Assembly (NCBI GenBank): GCA_016935885.1
Contig: JAFGQA010000369.1
Span: 1 to 5,757 of the forward strand
Length of the DNA stretch: 5,757 bases
Reading direction: 5' to 3'
DNA from: Phycisphaerae bacterium
GTDB taxonomy: Bacteria > Planctomycetota > Phycisphaerae > UBA1845 > UTPLA1
In this document: positions 1 to 5,757 of the stretch, piece by piece
How positions within the stretch are numbered: position 1 is the first letter of the stretch
Layout: each line of letters opens with the position of its first letter
The notes under the pieces: model-generated
What the model was told of the DNA's origin: nothing
Databases searched by the model: none
Seen by the model: only the letters and a program-made list of their open reading frames with translations
Program-made: the position numbers and the translations under genes

Positions 1-83
1 CCGGGGCCGAAGTGCTCAAACCCCGCAGGCGACATCACGTTTCTGCGAGCGACATCGCGGCAACGGAAACGCCGAACCGGTAG
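1..83 (+). CDS. Possible C-terminal tail of an upstream gene (partial)
   Basis: Frame 3 is open from the window edge and closes at a TAG at 81-83. It encodes about 26 residues ending in ASDIAATETPNR. The only support is position: the stop lies about 15 bases before a plus-strand hairpin that looks like a terminator, which is where a gene end is expected. The stretch is too short for a family assignment, and the other two plus-strand frames are also open over this distance, so it may be non-coding. An 8-base direct repeat, GCGACATC, occurs at 30-37 and again about 20 bases later. Confidence 0.25.
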   Translation, partial: GAEVLKPRRRHHVSASDIAATETPNR

Positions 84-98
84 AACCCTGTCGATTCT

Positions 99-122
99 CA
101 CCGCCAGAGGCGGTGGTTTGTT
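99..122 (+). terminator. Candidate intrinsic terminator
   Basis: A perfect 7-bp stem (CACCGCC at 99-105, GGCGGTG at 109-115) closes a 3-base AGA loop. It is followed by TTTGTT at 117-122. The stem is GC-rich and short and the T-tract is interrupted, so this is a moderate Rho-independent candidate. It would end transcription of whatever gene enters from the left and separate it from the small membrane-protein gene that follows. The opposite strand has no T-run after the hairpin, so it would act on the plus strand only. Confidence 0.5.
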
Positions 123-212
123 GATAGAATCAGAGCTGGCTTTGTTGGGTTTTCCAGATGTGTTGGGCTTTGCGGGCCTGTCGGCGTTCAACCGCCAGCC
201 CGCCGCCGGCTC

Positions 213-220
213 AAGGGAGA
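213..220 (+). promoter_or_regulatory. Ribosome binding site that decides a TTG start
   Basis: The sequence AAGGGAGA lies about 7 bases before a TTG at 227-229. It is the only Shine-Dalgarno-like match near the 5' end of this reading frame. The in-frame ATG at 158 has no such site upstream. Confidence 0.6.
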
Positions 221-226
221 CAGACG

Positions 227-634
227 TTGGAAGAACGAGAAGAGCCACAGCCCCCGGTGATCGAGTATGCAGCTTCAGTGAAGCAGGCGCCGGTTTCTCG
301 GTGGCTGGTCTTGTGCGGCCCGATCCTATGTGTGCTCTGTGCGATCGTCCTGCTCGGCGTCAGAGTGGCCGCTGCGTTTCACCCCGGGGGATGGCCCGGG
401 CTGACCGACTCGATGCATGGGCCGAATCCGCCGTTGATCAGCCGAATCGGTGATACGATTGCCTCGCTCGTACTTCTTCCGACGATGCTCGCAGGCGTAG
501 TTTGTGTCGCCACTTTTGTTTACGCGTCTCGTCGCAGAGACACCATAGCCCGCACCATTAACATTGTCGGTGCTATCGGGGCTTGCATCGTGTTCTTCTG
601 GGCCATGATGGACAACGTGCACCTGAACTTCTGA
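227..634 (+). CDS. Small three-helix membrane protein of unknown function
   Basis: The protein has 135 residues from a TTG start; an in-frame ATG at 158 would add 23 residues. I prefer the TTG because of its ribosome binding site and because the added segment is Arg/Pro/Ala-rich and looks like translated leader. The N-terminus is hydrophilic and acidic (MEEREEPQPP). Three hydrophobic segments follow, at roughly 26-48, 77-100 and 109-128. A Pro/Gly-rich loop (51-70, containing HPGGWPGL) joins the first two, and an Arg-rich turn (SRRRDTIART, 101-110) joins the last two. By the positive-inside rule that turn is probably cytoplasmic. No catalytic motif or known domain was recognised. The next gene starts 109 bases downstream on the same strand, so co-transcription with the glycosyltransferase is possible but unproven. 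Confidence 0.65.
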   Translation: MEEREEPQPPVIEYAASVKQAPVSRWLVLCGPILCVLCAIVLLGVRVAAAFHPGGWPGLTDSMHGPNPPLISRIGDTIASLVLLPTMLAGVVCVATFVYASRRRDTIARTINIVGAIGACIVFFWAMMDNVHLNF

Positions 635-743
635 GCAGCGAGAGAGAATGCGTTTGGGCGTCCCGATGACATTGGTGGGATCCTGGTCGAGCATTCGCTG
701 ACGGTTCTTGTGACCTGGTAACAGATGACGTTTGATGTGACAG

Positions 744-3143
744 ATGGCAGGCTGCAAGGTGCATAAGGCAGCGGTGAGCAGGCCGCGTGTTGGACTGATT
801 GTCCTGCTGATGACAGCGGGGATGCTGATCACCGTCGGGGGGATTTCGCCTGTCGCGCTGCTTGTGGCACTGCGTGGCGGTTCGGTCGCGGCCGGTGTGG
901 TGCTGGCGGCGACGGGTCTGGGGCTGTGGATCGTCCGTGGCCTGAAGCTGCACGGTGCGGAGGTCCGGTGGCAACTGCTGCTGGGGGCCGGATTGGGATT
1001 GGGCGCTATCTCGCTGCTTGTGTTGGGGCTGGGATCCGCCGGCGTGTTGGATCGAGCCGTCTGGGTGCCGCTCCTGGTGGCGTGCATGGTGGCCGGGCTG
1101 TGGCGCGTCCGCGCGATGTGCCGGAGCAGCAGGGACGCGGGCGAGCCGGCGGCCGAGACCGATGATGTGTGGATGCGGTGGTTGTGGTTGGCCGTCATAG
1201 GGTTTGGGGGCTTGGCGCTGCTGGCCGGGACGATGCCGCCGGGGATCCTATGGCCGGCGGAGGGGAACGGATACGACGTGCTGGAATACCACCTTGGCGT
1301 GCCACGGGAGCACTTCGAGGCGGGCCGGATCTCGTACCTGCCGCATAACATCTATGGCAACTTCCCGTTCAACGTGGAGATGCTGTATCTGCTGGCGATG
1401 GTCCTGCACGGCGGGCCGATCTCCGCCGTGTTCACGGCGAAGCTGCTGAACGTCCTTCTCGGGATGCTGGCAGTTGGGGCCGTGTGGCTGGCGGGCCGGG
1501 AGTTCGGCCGTGGAAGCGGGATCGTGGCGGGCGTGACCGCGGCGTCCTGTCCGTTTCTGACCTACCTGTGCGGGGTGGCGTATGTCGAGAACGGATTGCT
1601 GTTTTTTGCCGCGATGGCGCTCGGCGCTCTGCTGCACGCCGGGGGTGCGAGAAGGGATTCTCGCACCAGCGTCAGCGTGAGAAGGGATTCTCGCACCAGC
1701 GTTGGCGATTCTTGCACCAGCATTGGGGGTGCGAGAAGGGATTCTCGCACCAGCGTGCGGGCTCGTGGAGACCTCGGAGACCTGAGCAGCCGTTGGGGCG
1801 TCACGTCGGGGCTGTTGTGCGGATTGGCGTGTGGGTGCAAGTACACGGCGATCCCGGTGGTGTTTCTCCCGTTGGCGATCTCGGCTGTTTGGATGGCCTT
1901 TCGTATGCGGCCGGCACGGCCAGGCTTGCCGATCCTGTTCCTGCTCGGATGGGCGGTGGCGTTCGGACCGTGGGCGGTGAAGAACACCGTTGCGACGGGG
2001 AATCCCGTTTTCCCGTTGCTGCGAGACGTGTTTCCGGAGAGGGCGGGGATCTGGAACGAAGACGGAGCCGCTCGCTGGCACGAAGGACACCTGCCCGCTC
2101 CCGAGGATCGACCGCTGGGACGGCGCTTCGGCCGTTTGTGGCACGAGGTGCTCGCAGCGCCTTTGTTCGGGCCGGCGATCGGATTGGCGATTCTGGCGGG
2201 GCTTTTCGTCTTGCTGCGGCGCCTTCGGAACCGCGTGCCGCCGCGACCGGCCGGGGGGGGCGATTCCGCGGTAGGTGTGCCATCGGGCGCCGGGGAGGCC
2301 GACGGTTCCACCGGCCGAGGTTCCGCCGGCCGAGCCGACCAAGTTCCGGGGGGTGCTGCGCCGAGCTTGACCACGTGTTGGTTGATGTTCATCATCGGCG
2401 TCGCGACGTGGCTGGGGCTGACACACCTGGCGGGCAGGTTCGCCGTCGTATTGGTCGTTCCCGCGGCGGTGATCCTCGGCGGGACATGGCGGGTGGTTCG
2501 AGGGCCGACGTCGAGAGTGATCGGCGTGTTCGTTGTTCTGGCGGTCGTGCTCGTTAACCTGACCACGACGATGAACACATTTCGTCACGCGTCTGTATTC
2601 GAGGTTAGTTCATTACGGGACGCAGGACATACGGACGGATTGTCGTGGTTCACGGGCGGCCAGTGGCCGTGGCACGCGCACGTGCCGCGGTTGAACGCCT
2701 TGGCGGCAGACGGGCGGAAGGTCCTGATGGTGGGCGATGCGCGACGGTTGTACCTGGACAGAAACGTGGACTATTGCGTCGTGTTCAATCGCAACCCGTT
2801 CGCCGAGGCCGCGGAAGACCGTTCGCCGGCGGCGATGATCGAGTGGTTGCGCGGGCAAGGCTACGGCTACGTGTACGTGGACTGGGTGGAGATGCGGCGG
2901 CTGCGTGGGACGCGCTATGGGTTCTGGTCCACGGTTGACGCGGATCTGTTTCGACGAATGACGGAGGCGGGACTCGAGCGTCTCGAGGACTTCTCGTTTG
3001 GTGAGGGCGGCAGGCTTTACGGGACGTTGTTCAAGGTGGCAAACGGACCTCGCACAAGGCCAGTGTCACCATTTCTGGGGCCGGCGTCACCAGTTGGGGG
3101 CGAGGCTCAGCATGAGGATGCCGAAGGTGATCATGGCGGTTAG
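744..3143 (+). CDS. Polytopic GT-C (GT39-like) membrane glycosyltransferase
   Basis: The 799-residue protein probably transfers a sugar from a polyprenyl-phosphate donor to an acceptor on the outer face of the cytoplasmic membrane; the acceptor is unknown. About a dozen hydrophobic helices occur between residues 17 and 607. After the helix at 145-165 comes a large hydrophilic loop with GYDVLEYHLGVP (176-187) and YLPHNIYGNFPFNVEM (198-213). This is where GT-C enzymes carry their acidic catalytic residue; D178 is the best candidate and E181 is close by. GLACGCKYTA (360-369) matches the conserved G-x-K-Y-T helix start of GT39-like proteins. After the last helix (592-606) a soluble domain (about 628-765) contains KVLMVGDARRLYLDR. 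Oddities are an in-frame palindromic repeat block (300-337), a low-complexity Gly/Ala/Pro linker (499-540), and a C-terminal tail after LFKV (762-765) that overlaps the convergent gene. The start is uncertain: the ATG at 744 lacks a clear ribosome site, while an in-frame GTG at 774 has AAGG five bases upstream. The family call is firm; the substrate is not known. Confidence 0.85.
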   Translation: MAGCKVHKAAVSRPRVGLIVLLMTAGMLITVGGISPVALLVALRGGSVAAGVVLAATGLGLWIVRGLKLHGAEVRWQLLLGAGLGLGAISLLVLGLGSAGVLDRAVWVPLLVACMVAGLWRVRAMCRSSRDAGEPAAETDDVWMRWLWLAVIGFGGLALLAGTMPPGILWPAEGNGYDVLEYHLGVPREHFEAGRISYLPHNIYGNFPFNVEMLYLLAMVLHGGPISAVFTAKLLNVLLGMLAVGAVWLAGREFGRGSGIVAGVTAASCPFLTYLCGVAYVENGLLFFAAMALGALLHAGGARRDSRTSVSVRRDSRTSVGDSCTSIGGARRDSRTSVRARGDLGDLSSRWGVTSGLLCGLACGCKYTAIPVVFLPLAISAVWMAFRMRPARPGLPILFLLGWAVAFGPWAVKNTVATGNPVFPLLRDVFPERAGIWNEDGAARWHEGHLPAPEDRPLGRRFGRLWHEVLAAPLFGPAIGLAILAGLFVLLRRLRNRVPPRPAGGGDSAVGVPSGAGEADGSTGRGSAGRADQVPGGAAPSLTTCWLMFIIGVATWLGLTHLAGRFAVVLVVPAAVILGGTWRVVRGPTSRVIGVFVVLAVVLVNLTTTMNTFRHASVFEVSSLRDAGHTDGLSWFTGGQWPWHAHVPRLNALAADGRKVLMVGDARRLYLDRNVDYCVVFNRNPFAEAAEDRSPAAMIEWLRGQGYGYVYVDWVEMRRLRGTRYGFWSTVDADLFRRMTEAGLERLEDFSFGEGGRLYGTLFKVANGPRTRPVSPFLGPASPVGGEAQHEDAEGDHGG
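1641..1754 (+). repeat. Cluster of in-frame palindromic repeats inside the glycosyltransferase gene
   Basis: Copies 1 (1644-1667) and 4 (1728-1751) are perfect palindromes: GGTGCGAGAA, loop GGGA, TTCTCGCACC. They also share flanking bases, so about 32 bases are identical. Copy 2 has an intact right arm (1688-1697) but a left arm changed in its outer half. Copy 3 keeps only a slightly altered right arm (TTCTTGCACC, 1709-1718). Each copy is followed by AGC. The right arms are spaced 30, 21 and 33 bases apart, all multiples of three. The translation is GGARRDSRTS, VSVRRDSRTS, VGDSCTS, IGGARRDSRTS, at residues 300-337. The block lies between hydrophobic helices at about 275-297 and 352-385, so it extends a loop rather than breaking a helix. 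Confidence 0.9.
1767..1784 (+). repeat. 9-bp tandem duplication beside the palindrome cluster
   Basis: GGAGACCTC at 1767-1775 is followed directly by GGAGACCTG at 1776-1784. It is in frame and gives the repeated GDLGDL of the glycosyltransferase loop (residues 342-347). Its length, a multiple of three, and its position just after the palindromic copies suggest that the whole loop tolerates small expansions. Confidence 0.6.
2253..2333 (+). repeat. Low-complexity linker with a G8 run and a 15-bp tandem repeat
   Basis: A run of eight G occupies 2253-2260. A 15-base unit, GGTTCCACCGGCCGA (2304-2318), is repeated immediately with one change (2319-2333). Both fall in the part of the glycosyltransferase gene that encodes the Gly/Ala/Pro/Ser-rich linker (residues about 499-540) between two membrane helices. 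The tandem unit is five codons long and keeps the frame. The G-run is a plausible slippage site, which would truncate the protein if its length changed; that consequence is inferred. Confidence 0.6.
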
Positions 3144-3878
3144 CGTGCCCGCGATGGTCGTGATGCCGGCGATGCCCGCCGAGCGGTGGGCGAGCGATCC
3201 CGCGCTTTTGCGGCCGCTGTGTCGGCGAGCGATGTGTGCGGCAAGTGCGATGCAGACCACGGCGATGAAGACGCCGTAAAGCTGGCTGAGCAGTGCGATC
3301 GCCATGCCGGGGCCGATTCTGCTGACGTCATCCATACACCTCAACATGATGACAAGACCGATCACGGTGGCCAGGAATCCGCTGGCCAGGGCGAACGCCG
3401 CACCGAGTTGAAAGAATGTGACGGCGTCCTCGGCCGTCTTGCCGGGCGTGGGCTTGCGGAAGACCCACGCGAAGGCGTCGATGATGCCAGCCCAACCGTA
3501 GACGGCGAACAGGATCGTTACGGGCGTGAGCACGACGAGCACAGCCGCGGGAAAATCCAAGAATACGTCCAGGATCTCGCCGCCGCTCCCAAGGAACGTG
3601 GCATAGCCCCAAACTGCGAAGAATCCAACGATCCCGACAAGGGCGGAAATGAGGTTCCGATTGCGGTGCACCGGCGGCGTAGCCGGGCTGGTTACCTTGG
3701 GAGCCGTGTTGGGGTCCTGGTGTTCGGCAGGCTCGTCCGGCGGCTCGGACGCCTCCTCGAACGCCGGACTGTGGTAGGTGCCCTTGGTGACCGGGTCCAA
3801 ATCCGGGATGACGTTTTCTGGGGCCTGGAAATCTGGCTGGGTACCTAGGTGCTGACGGGTTGTGTTGATTCCTCGCAT
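3087..3878 (-). CDS. MotA/TolQ/ExbB-family membrane protein, short-loop form
   Basis: The protein has 263 residues. Residues 1-72 are hydrophilic and rich in Pro, Glu, Asp and Thr, and probably disordered. Hydrophobic segments follow at about 76-96, 110-131, 157-179, 188-216 and 234-260. The stretch FLATVIGLVIML (168-179), then RCMDDVSRIGPGMAIALL (180-197) and LYG, is the typical core of the MotA/TolQ/ExbB proton-channel family. GGEILDVFLDFPAAVLVV (99-116) resembles the N-terminal region of MotA. The loop between the second and third segments is only about 25 residues, whereas flagellar MotA carries a cytoplasmic domain of about 100 residues there, so a flagellar stator role is unlikely. The proline usual in the pore helix (AP before the LLGT-V-G motif) is Leu164 here, while Thr171 is kept. 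No MotB, ExbD or TolR partner is visible nearby. The start is supported by AAGGAG at 3888-3893. Its 3' end overlaps the glycosyltransferase gene tail to tail. Family assignment is good; function is unknown. Confidence 0.8.
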   Translation of the reverse strand: MRGINTTRQHLGTQPDFQAPENVIPDLDPVTKGTYHSPAFEEASEPPDEPAEHQDPNTAPKVTSPATPPVHRNRNLISALVGIVGFFAVWGYATFLGSGGEILDVFLDFPAAVLVVLTPVTILFAVYGWAGIIDAFAWVFRKPTPGKTAEDAVTFFQLGAAFALASGFLATVIGLVIMLRCMDDVSRIGPGMAIALLSQLYGVFIAVVCIALAAHIARRHSGRKSAGSLAHRSAGIAGITTIAGTLTAMITFGILMLSLAPNW

Positions 3879-3887
3879 CTTTCCGGA

Positions 3888-3893
3888 CTCCTT
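3888..3893 (-). promoter_or_regulatory. Strong ribosome binding site of the MotA-like gene
   Basis: Read on the minus strand, AAGGAG lies about 9 bases before the ATG at 3878-3876. It fixes that start and shows that the gene has its own translation signal despite lying only about 100 bases after nadB. Confidence 0.75.
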
Positions 3894-3980
3894 CGGCTCC
3901 GCTGAGGGTAGCGCTGCTGATATCGGCGCGCGGTTGCCACGCGATTAGATTCGGCCTTCACCAGCACCCACATCGCAGGA

Positions 3981-5630
3981 TCATGCCGGCAAGGGCTCGA
4001 AGGCCTGACGTATGCCGTCGGGGGTCCGTTCAATCGTGATATGGCCAAGATAGTTTTTGTCGTTTGTCTCCGGGAAGTCGTTGCGGTAATGGACGCCACG
4101 GGACTCCTGGCGGGCGAGGGCCGCCTGGGCTACGCACTTGGCGACGGTCAGCATGTTCTGCGTCTCCCAGCCCATGCGGTGTTCGAGGACCTTGTCCATG
4201 ACGTAGCGTCCCCAGAAGTTGATGATCTCGATGGTCTCGGCAAGGCGGTCGCCCGTGCGGTTGATGCCGGTGTTCCGCCAACATAGGGCCCGAAGGCTGT
4301 TTCGGACATCGGGCAGGTCGAGCTCGGTACGCAGGCTGGGTTGCATCAGATGGCTCAACGGCCGAGGCCCGATATGGCCGGAGAACTCCGTGGCCAGGTC
4401 GGCGGTGAGCCGGCCCACGCGCCTGCCGAAGACGAGCCCCTCGAGCAGGGAGTTGCTGGCCAGTCTGTTGGCGCCGTGTACGCCGGTAGCCGCCGCCTCA
4501 CCGCAGGCAAACAGCCCATCGATGGACGATCGCCCGGCAATGTCAACGGCGACGCCTCCAATCATGTAATGAGCGGCCGGGCGGACTGGGATGAGATCCC
4601 GGCTCACGTCGATGTCGAACTCGCGGCACAAGCGCGCAATGTTCGGGAATCGCTCGCCGAATCGGCCCGGCGCAAAATGGCGCACGTCTAAATAGACATT
4701 TGTAGCTTCAGTGGCCACGATATGTTGGAGGATGACGCGGCTGACGATGTCGCGCGGGGCAAGCTCGGCGTCGCGATGGTGTTCCACCATGAAGCGGTGG
4801 CCGTCACGATCGACGAGGCGCGCACCTTCGCCGCGGACGGCTTCGCTGATGAGCGCACGGGCCGCACCGGCGACGTACAACGCCGTGGGGTGGAACTGGA
4901 AGAACTCCATGTCGCGCAGCCTGGCACCCGCGCGAAAGGCGATCGCGTGGCCGTCGGCCGTCGCCGAGGGGGGATTCGTCGTTTCGCGGAACAGGTGGCC
5001 GCCGCCGCCGGAACACAAGATCGTCTGATTGGCCCAGATGATTTGATAGCCATACTTCTCGTGGTGCGTGACCGCCGCGGTGCAGCGGCCGTCTTCAACG
5101 ACCAGATCGAGGACGAAGCAATGCTCGAACAGGCGGATTCTGTTGCACGCCGTAGCGAGTTGGGCGAGGATGCGGCTGAGCTCGCGGCCCGTGGCGTCTC
5201 CCAGGGCGTGGACGACGCGCCTCGCCGAGTGGCCGCCTTCCATACCGAGGGCCACGGCACCGTCTTTCAGGTCGAACCTGGCGCCCCAGCGGCGCAGTTC
5301 ATCTAGACACTCGGGGCCCTCACGTGCCAGTGTCTCGATGACCTCGCGATGGCCGAGCCCCGCGCCAACCTGCACGGTGTCAGCAACGTGCGATTCGACG
5401 GAGTCATCGGCCCCGGTGACGACCGCGATCCCGCCTTGGGCATACGTCGTGCTGCAATCGGGCACGCGATCCTTGGTGACGAGCACGACGTTGGCGCTCT
5501 TGCCTGCCTCGATGGCGGCGCGCAATCCGGCAACGCCCGCACCTATGACCAGAACGTCGGTGAAGACCTGGCCGAGTCGTTGGGTGTCGAAGTTGATCAG
5601 ATACCGGCGTTGCGCGAAGTTCTCGCTCAT
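3981..5630 (-). CDS. nadB: L-aspartate oxidase
   Basis: This FAD enzyme oxidises L-aspartate to iminoaspartate, which quinolinate synthase (NadA) then uses in de novo NAD synthesis in the cytoplasm. Residue numbers assume a 549-residue protein starting MSENFAQRR. An N-terminal dinucleotide fold has VIGAGVAGLRAA (28-39). STTYAQGGIA (60-69) is the usual flavin-contact region. EGGHS (131-135) carries the Glu that separates NadB from succinate dehydrogenase flavoproteins. QFHPTALY (245-252), EAVRGEGA (263-270), LAPRDIV (290-296) and AAHYMIGG (352-359) contain His247, Arg266, Arg293 and His354; His247, Arg293 and His354 match E. coli His244, Arg290 and His351. HGANRLASNSLLEGLV (385-400) binds the flavin, and ARQESRGVHY with DFPE (about 506-520) is the typical C-terminal helical domain. 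Nothing essential is missing. An in-frame ATG at 5702 would add 24 residues; I prefer 5630 because the extension looks like translated leader and 549 is nearer the usual length, but neither start has a clear ribosome site. No nadA or nadC is present in the window. Confidence 0.95.
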   Translation of the reverse strand: MSENFAQRRYLINFDTQRLGQVFTDVLVIGAGVAGLRAAIEAGKSANVVLVTKDRVPDCSTTYAQGGIAVVTGADDSVESHVADTVQVGAGLGHREVIETLAREGPECLDELRRWGARFDLKDGAVALGMEGGHSARRVVHALGDATGRELSRILAQLATACNRIRLFEHCFVLDLVVEDGRCTAAVTHHEKYGYQIIWANQTILCSGGGGHLFRETTNPPSATADGHAIAFRAGARLRDMEFFQFHPTALYVAGAARALISEAVRGEGARLVDRDGHRFMVEHHRDAELAPRDIVSRVILQHIVATEATNVYLDVRHFAPGRFGERFPNIARLCREFDIDVSRDLIPVRPAAHYMIGGVAVDIAGRSSIDGLFACGEAAATGVHGANRLASNSLLEGLVFGRRVGRLTADLATEFSGHIGPRPLSHLMQPSLRTELDLPDVRNSLRALCWRNTGINRTGDRLAETIEIINFWGRYVMDKVLEHRMGWETQNMLTVAKCVAQAALARQESRGVHYRNDFPETNDKNYLGHITIERTPDGIRQAFEPLPA

Positions 5631-5731
5631 AGGAGTGCCATGATACAGCCCGGCCGGATGAATCGCGAGTGAGCGCAACGGCCGCGACACCACCGGGTTC
5701 ATGACGCATCCGGCTGTGGTCGATTCTGGGT

Positions 5732-5757
5732 GCTACGGGCAGCTTGTCCGCCCGTGC
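5732..5757. repeat. Hairpin at the window edge, upstream of nadB
   Basis: ACGGGC at 5735-5740 pairs with GCCCGT at 5750-5755 around a 9-base loop. With one bulged T (5734), GC at 5732-5733 pairs with GC at 5756-5757, and the stem may continue beyond the window because GGTGC on the left could meet GCACC. It lies about 100 bases upstream of the preferred nadB start and about 30 bases upstream of the alternative ATG. It could be a terminator of an upstream minus-strand gene, a leader structure, or a dispersed intergenic palindrome. No T-run is visible on the minus strand in the window. Confidence 0.4.

Follow-up and report, generated by a model that had tools for sequence, protein, structure and literature searches.

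Within a 5,757-nt stretch of DNA from a Phycisphaerae bacterium (contig JAFGQA010000369.1, positions 1-5,757; hereafter the window) there is a gene for a membrane glycosyltransferase whose coding sequence contains four units of a palindromic element. The gene itself matches no Pfam family at E 0.001, and we call it GT39/ArnT-like because its listed homologues match PF13231, PF02366 or PF26626, and some sources name them glycosyltransferase family 39 or ArnT-like. An initial annotation of the window had described two perfect palindromes, a third copy with a decayed left arm and a remnant of a right arm, all within an open frame, and each of these is found in the block (Table 1).

The perfect 24-bp palindrome, GGTGCGAGAA-GGGA-TTCTCGCACC, was located by direct reading and by pattern search. 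With up to three mismatches allowed the pattern occurs three times in the window, compared with no occurrence in 200 dinucleotide-preserving shuffles. Matches to the right arm start at 1656, 1686, 1707 and 1740, and the spacings of 30, 21 and 33 nt are each a multiple of three, as had been annotated. Units 1 and 4 had been described as identical, and they are so over 32 nt, bases beyond the palindrome included. Unit 1 folds as single-stranded DNA with a z score of -7.0, and the whole block folds as RNA with a z score of -5.9. The conserved end of the unit, which we term the tag, is followed by GT in three of the four units, compared with 6 of 101 exact copies of the family described below. The annotation had offered either recent duplication or independent insertions as the origin of the array. 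Because the units share flanking bases, a single insertion with local duplication appears the more likely origin, and independent insertions the less likely.

The array is translated as about the number of added residues that had been proposed (38), within a loop between conserved anchors that is 53 residues long in the window protein. A total of 461 proteins match the glycosyltransferase, and the best 120 of these, including that of the window, were aligned; the median loop length is 12 residues. The peptides RRDSR, DSRT and SRTS are found in none of the 119 other listed homologues, so that the block itself is absent from all of them. In four homologues (P0002, P0005, P0106 and P0115) the same alignment columns hold 24-26 residues of unrelated sequence, and therefore the position tolerates insertions. 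The loop of P0002 includes the peptide MGETPVPQ, which looks as if it were translated from a palindrome of a different family. A search for such a family as the source of the GETPVP peptide found no large number of copies, GGGCGTCTCGCCC occurring at three places in 115 loci. The codon score of the reading frame lies between -5 and -13 in 90-nt windows starting at 1614-1734 and is positive on both sides, as expected of DNA that has not evolved as coding sequence. The two adjoining genes look ordinary.

Table 1. Positions of the palindrome units, their host gene and the adjoining genes in the window
Feature	Position	Strand	Remarks
Unit 1, perfect palindrome (hairpin B)	1644..1667	+	Tag CAGC at 1667-1670
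Unit 2, hairpin B with decayed left arm	1675..1696	+	Two mismatches, both in the left arm; right arm intact, then CAGC
Unit 3, right-arm remnant with tag	1707..1721	+	One mismatch; pattern search
Unit 4, perfect palindrome (hairpin B)	1728..1751	+	Then CAGC; pattern search
Whole array as translated	1644..1757	+	Residues 301-338 (38 residues), GARRDSRTSVSVRRDSRTSVGDSCTSIGGARRDSRTSV
Membrane glycosyltransferase, GT39/ArnT-like kind	744..3143	+	Open reading frame of 799 aa, open across the palindrome block
MotA/TolQ/ExbB-family gene	3087-3878	-	Adjoins the glycosyltransferase gene
FAD-binding oxidoreductase gene	3981-5702	-	FAD_binding_2 and Succ_DH_flav_C; presumably L-aspartate oxidase

Distribution and structure of the palindrome family

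A public collection in which each species is represented by a single genome was searched for the palindrome, the four loop bases being left free. Among the matches listed, which comprise at least 120 stretches, 116 of 120 belong to records whose titles name Planctomycetota groups, for the most part Phycisphaerae, and the remaining four to Bradyrhizobium, Nitratireductor, Vibrio and Gemmatimonadetes. No palindrome matches were found in the viral contigs scanned. Twenty genomes were then picked as carriers for copy counts at up to two mismatches; ten have 8-204 copies each and ten have 2-82, compared with 0-2 for the reversed pattern used as control. A search that included the tag was positive in 19 of 41 genomes of relatives. 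In a sample of 294 genomes from the phylum searched at up to one mismatch, no copy was found in any of the 293 besides the center genome. The palindrome is a dispersed DNA element, and the family appears to be restricted to one Planctomycetota lineage. This supports the suggestion in the initial annotation of a DNA or RNA element rather than selection on the protein. The annotation had proposed a search for dispersed copies and an alignment of orthologues, and in relatives both gave the predicted result: the copies are many, mostly intergenic and some in frame, and the homologues are without the block. A lack of other copies, with RRDSRTS kept in orthologues, had been named as the outcome that would speak against this, and neither half of it was seen. 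The same loci (L001-L120) also contain NGGA-loop hairpins with other stems (such as GACGAGAT, ACCGAGAA, GCCGAGAA and CGCGGGAA), which may be subfamilies.

The extent of the element was determined from 147 copies, oriented by loop and tag in a manner that somewhat favors the tag. Conservation begins about 25 nt 5' of the palindrome, here called hairpin B, and stops sharply after CAGC(G). The full unit is about 55 nt in length and consists of hairpin A (about CGGGAAGGGATTCCCG), roughly 8 nt of spacer, hairpin B as GGTGCGAGAA-NGGA-TTCTCGCACC, and the tag AGC(G). The two hairpins have the NGGA loop in common, with different stems. The outermost base pair of stem B covaries: among 220 copies, 155 have G:C and 26 have C:G. 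Since its two bases change together, AGC(G) is left as the free end, which reads (C)GCT on the opposite strand. An exact right arm has a left partner in 119 cases and stands alone in 10, and on these numbers we dropped an impression of frequent right-arm-only copies.

Short, high in copy number, dispersed and mainly intergenic, the palindrome has the character of a repetitive extragenic palindrome (REP), a kind of element with a length of about 20-65 nt. Inverted neighbors within 300 nt form 31 pairs with the tags outward and three with the tags inward, with a peak in spacing at 85 nt (7 of 31). This is the geometry of the REP doublet forming a hairpin (REPIN). Direct neighbors form 53 pairs. 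In one genome (G003) there are long local tandem clusters with differing periods of about 44-60 nt on contigs C32, C36, C57, C72, C117 and C130, and clusters with many periods are a sign of local amplification.

Position of the element relative to genes

Genes were called in 115 of the 120 loci with an iterated codon model trained on the loci themselves, replacing a noisier first model (8 intragenic copies). Called coding sequence makes up 80% of the DNA, while the 144 exact copies comprise 117 that are intergenic, 23 deep in called genes and 4 near gene ends. Of 95 intergenic copies, 52 lie between co-directional, 23 between divergent and 20 between convergent genes, close to the share of intergenic bases in each class. 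Between co-directional genes 23 copies are sense and 29 antisense, and inside genes 14 are sense and 9 antisense. Thus neither a preferred orientation relative to genes nor an excess between convergent genes was seen.

These numbers bear on the possibility that the hairpin is kept for a role as RNA, as a terminator, a stability element or the site bound by a GGA-loop regulator. The block folds strongly as RNA, and the NGGA loop is constant while the stems differ; as RNA the ANGGA(T) loop presumably resembles a CsrA-type binding site. Against this, the element shows neither the orientation preference nor the convergent-gene excess examined above, and no Rfam family is matched at gathering score in the window. 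On these grounds we rejected RNA-level function, which we regard as the least probable of the alternatives, with hardly any likelihood left to it.

The 23 deep copies are spread over 17 called genes, 14 of them with a match to some Pfam family. The clearest cases are nine copies in seven genes where family matches flank the copy on both sides, and these occupy five reading frames. The genes encode methylmalonyl-CoA mutase, NeuB, ThiC, a xanthine dehydrogenase-type enzyme, a MobA-like transferase, a GT4-type glycosyltransferase and a PilM/FtsA-type protein; the match on the amino side of ThiC comes from a separate comparison, and the FtsA match is exactly at the cut-off. The sixth frame is used in an AAA protein (L009), with the copy outside the matched domain. 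In the GT4-type gene (L081) there are three exact copies in three different frames. The remaining 10 called genes are weaker cases, in which no family is matched or the copy is situated past the matched domain.

Relative to solved structures, the mutase is longer by about 32 residues and ThiC by about 120, only some of the latter coming from the palindrome, and in the NeuB-, xanthine dehydrogenase- and MobA-type proteins the region of the copy is gapped or unaligned. Six mutase orthologues have 77-83% identity, and an alignment was made of four of these and the carrier; three of the four have no insert at all, and in the other a decayed palindrome occupies the site. In the ThiC gene (L060:622-2442, minus strand) the extra residues lie between IPANIRH and the conserved core, and the stretch contains one exact palindrome, other hairpins and repeats of intergenic appearance. 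The element is thus found inserted in frame in protein genes, in several frames, in the manner of Rickettsia palindromic elements (RPEs).

We can now consider whether the repeat in the window was selected as protein, that is, as a functional Arg/Ser/Thr-rich loop of the glycosyltransferase with the DNA symmetry as a by-product. The open frame and the spacings in multiples of three are what this would predict, and homologues vary in this loop, with other long stretches in four of them. Against this, unrelated proteins read the repeat in several frames, both sense and antisense, and most of its copies lie outside genes, the codon score is negative across the block, and none of the 119 other listed homologues has the peptides. 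We therefore rejected selection at the protein level, and consider it very improbable.

A transposase gene bracketed by the element

REP families may be accompanied by a REP-associated tyrosine transposase (RAYT), an enzyme of the Y1 type. Y1 transposases are present in all ten genomes tested. The element brackets five of the 68 Y1 loci fetched (three places being represented twice); at another four a copy lies on a single side or at a greater distance. Only two of the 30 loci scoring best as Y1_Tnp have any copy, and one of these (L150) belongs to the clade of RAYTs described here. The other members of the clade score low on the Pfam model (24-29 bits) and fall outside the 30 best.

One RAYT was compared with 81 genomes. 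Among the matches listed, intact members of the clade have 62-81% identity with E values of 3e-76 or better, while below the clade matches over at least 100 residues are at most 39% identical; short fragments of 51-75% identity occur in G006, G018 and G052. The 11 distinct intact clade loci that were fetched, from 10 genomes, all have the element on both sides, and in eight of these the flanking copies are inverted with the tags outward. By contrast, none of 21 fetched Y1 loci of lower identity has the element at up to four mismatches. A clade fragment at the start of a contig (L227) has no copy. A twelfth clade RAYT, at locus L040 of G006, lies between copies at 4055 and 4699. The contig that carries it (C505; L040 and L209) has two RAYT copies 2,996 nt apart, each between copies of the element. 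The pair is apparently a tandem duplication, and short RAYT fragments are found elsewhere in this genome.

In a tree of 32 sequences a branch supported at 100/100 has all 11 clade RAYTs on the same side. All four that were scanned pass the curated NCBIfam cut-off for RAYTs (NF047646, 107-116 bits with a cut-off of 80). The HxH motif and the tyrosine are invariant in the alignment of 11 sequences, the tyrosine lying in a YxHxNP motif. The gene therefore has two of the properties of a RAYT, namely a Y1 transposase scoring above a curated cut-off and flanking by its own REP family.

A further connection is provided by variation in the stem. In G008 (L190) the four copies beside the RAYT carry the TTCACGCAC stem, which has one mismatch, and exact copies of this variant and of TTCTCGCAC in the genome number 123 and 2, respectively. 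The RAYT of G030 is also flanked by TTCACGCAC, and there the numbers are 3 and 2. For the other genomes with a RAYT the numbers of TTCACGCAC and TTCTCGCAC are 4 and 63 in G003, 6 and 27 in G006, 0 and 44 in G004, 0 and 18 in G007, 0 and 17 in G047, 0 and 11 in G024, 0 and 3 in G010, and 0 and 1 in G081. In each of these genomes the variant that flanks the RAYT is the commoner one, the counts being thin in G030, G010 and G081. This fits the RAYT and the copies as a cognate pair. In two carriers of the element without a clade RAYT the corresponding numbers are 7 and 48 (G005) and 2 and 34 (G053).

Interpretation and relation to known systems

We consider it very probable that the block in the glycosyltransferase gene is a degenerate tandem array of a REP, from a REP/REPIN family with a noncanonical foot, that was inserted and then locally duplicated. 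Two REPs in inverted orientation with tags outward constitute a REPIN, and the same layout commonly brackets the dedicated RAYT gene. The RAYT, as a single-strand-specific HUH/Y1 enzyme, would recognize the hairpin with its conserved loop in single-stranded DNA, cut near the tag and join REPs or REPINs at other places. Most of the surviving insertions lie between genes. A frame-keeping insertion in a tolerant loop could survive inside a gene and become translated. Survival in frame would be possible because the consensus unit contains no stop codon in any of the six frames, a property that is unremarkable for the composition (it is shared by 20% of 28-mer and 9% of 55-mer shuffles). In the window a unit of hairpin B would have entered the loop and been duplicated locally, with arms lost in part; slippage or template switching is the probable cause of the duplication. 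We infer both the movement by the RAYT and this order of events, and that the peptide of the array is tolerated rather than selected.

A number of observations weigh against this interpretation. The foot is not the GT[AG]G of canonical REPs; of 140 full copies, only 41 carry GTGG or GTAG at their B stem. At the RAYT loci two of 11 are flanked by direct copies and one is mixed. Three copy-rich carriers have no clade RAYT, namely G005 (127 copies), G027 (34) and G053 (82), where the assemblies may be incomplete. Among the 41 relatives a clade RAYT is present in six of 19 carriers, in one as a fragment, compared with none of 22 non-carriers (Fisher p 0.006, with kinship ignored). Among 225 copies with up to four mismatches, hairpin A accompanies 123 of 192 outside called genes compared with 12 of 33 inside (p 0.004). 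None was seen beside the units of the window, and these may be inert singlets. Direct neighbors called intergenic elsewhere also prefer multiples of three, with remainders of 0, 1 and 2 in 26, 10 and 9 pairs, and the spacing is therefore weak evidence for coding constraint or selection. Lastly, the family copies with their anatomy and distribution, the association with the RAYT and the in-frame sites all come from relatives of the host of the window.

Some of these points would also be explained if the element were a miniature inverted-repeat transposable element, or another palindrome, that owes its movement to some unrelated transposase or solely to recombination. The link with the RAYT would then be a by-product, for example of REPs collecting around RAYT genes. 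Several copy-rich genomes without a clade RAYT, tandem clusters of many periods that show local duplication needing no transposase, and the lack of an established target duplication or autonomous copy are all in keeping with this. It does not account well for the bracketing of every intact clade locus fetched and of none of the 21 fetched Y1 loci of lower identity, nor for the agreement between the stem variant at the RAYT and the genomic majority, which is clearest in G008. Moreover, the metagenome-assembled genomes are incomplete, and a RAYT can be lost while the copies persist. We regard such an unrelated mover as unlikely, though less so than a role for the repeat as protein or RNA.

REPs, REPINs and RAYTs (also TnpAREP, in the REPtron arrangement) have been described (PMC3116915, PMC6006769, PMC8266576), and we compare our family with these and other systems. 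It shares with REPs and REPINs a short high-copy palindrome with a conserved end motif, a mostly intergenic location and inverted doublets, and with REPtrons a family-specific RAYT gene bracketed by the element and a conserved hairpin loop. It differs in a free end of AGC(G), or (C)GCT on the other strand, rather than GT[AG]G, in having two hairpins with the same loop per REP, and in its occurrence in Planctomycetota. Nor is the conserved free end the CGTC tag of the second REP superfamily. REP families have been reported in Planctomycetes (PMC3733652).

GTAG and CGTC REPs are found in frame within proteins, including Rickettsia conorii RPE-4 and RPE-6 and examples in Opitutus terrae (PMC3733652). 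Like our family these occur in known enzymes, singly, paired or clustered, in genes that are apparently intact, but they differ in tag and sequence, and the Planctomycetota family has a RAYT partner. The likeness to RPEs drawn in the initial annotation holds for behavior, while the closer kind, REP/REPIN with RAYT, had gone unnamed there. Compared by description, RPEs differ in host phylum, and the tag here is not of the CGTC type of PMC3733652. REPs also lie in frame inside genes of TnpAREP subclass 2.4 (PMC6006769), where the insertions likewise keep the frame in a peripheral region of the protein; there the host is the transposase itself, whereas here the hosts are a range of metabolic enzymes. 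Finally, class 3 TnpAY1 genes have their main occurrence in Planctomycetes, Acidobacteria and Proteobacteria (PMC6006769). They are Y1 genes partly of the same phylum, flanked by atypical hairpins that are sometimes in high copy. That class has Y----Q and a CnGA foot, and the present clade, with YxHxNP and (C)GCT, does not belong to it.

The family is not named in the titles and abstract openings of the open-licence literature searched. The REPIN and REPtron geometry and the transposase partner fit, the tag is neither GT[AG]G nor CGTC, and the family is unnamed in that literature; we therefore place it as a variant within the REP kind. The family, its end sequence and its transposase partner look new, while the general kind is already known.

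A more specific proposal, toward which we are almost evenly balanced but lean slightly against, is that a RAYT lineage of Planctomycetota using the (C)GCT/AGC(G) foot in place of GT[AG]G drives a two-hairpin REPIN that keeps entering the genes of core enzymes in any frame. If true, in-frame palindromes would have an identified transposase of their own in a family outside the GT[AG]G type. The family described here is intragenic and in frame, and it is accompanied by a RAYT that the same element brackets. The changed stem shared in G008 by the flanks of the RAYT and the genomic copies provides a natural test of recognition by the RAYT. For annotation of these bacteria there is a warning that Arg/Ser/Thr-rich or VREGILAP-like stretches can be translated repeats and not domains. 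And if the proposal is correct, the element would be an ongoing source of new protein loops.

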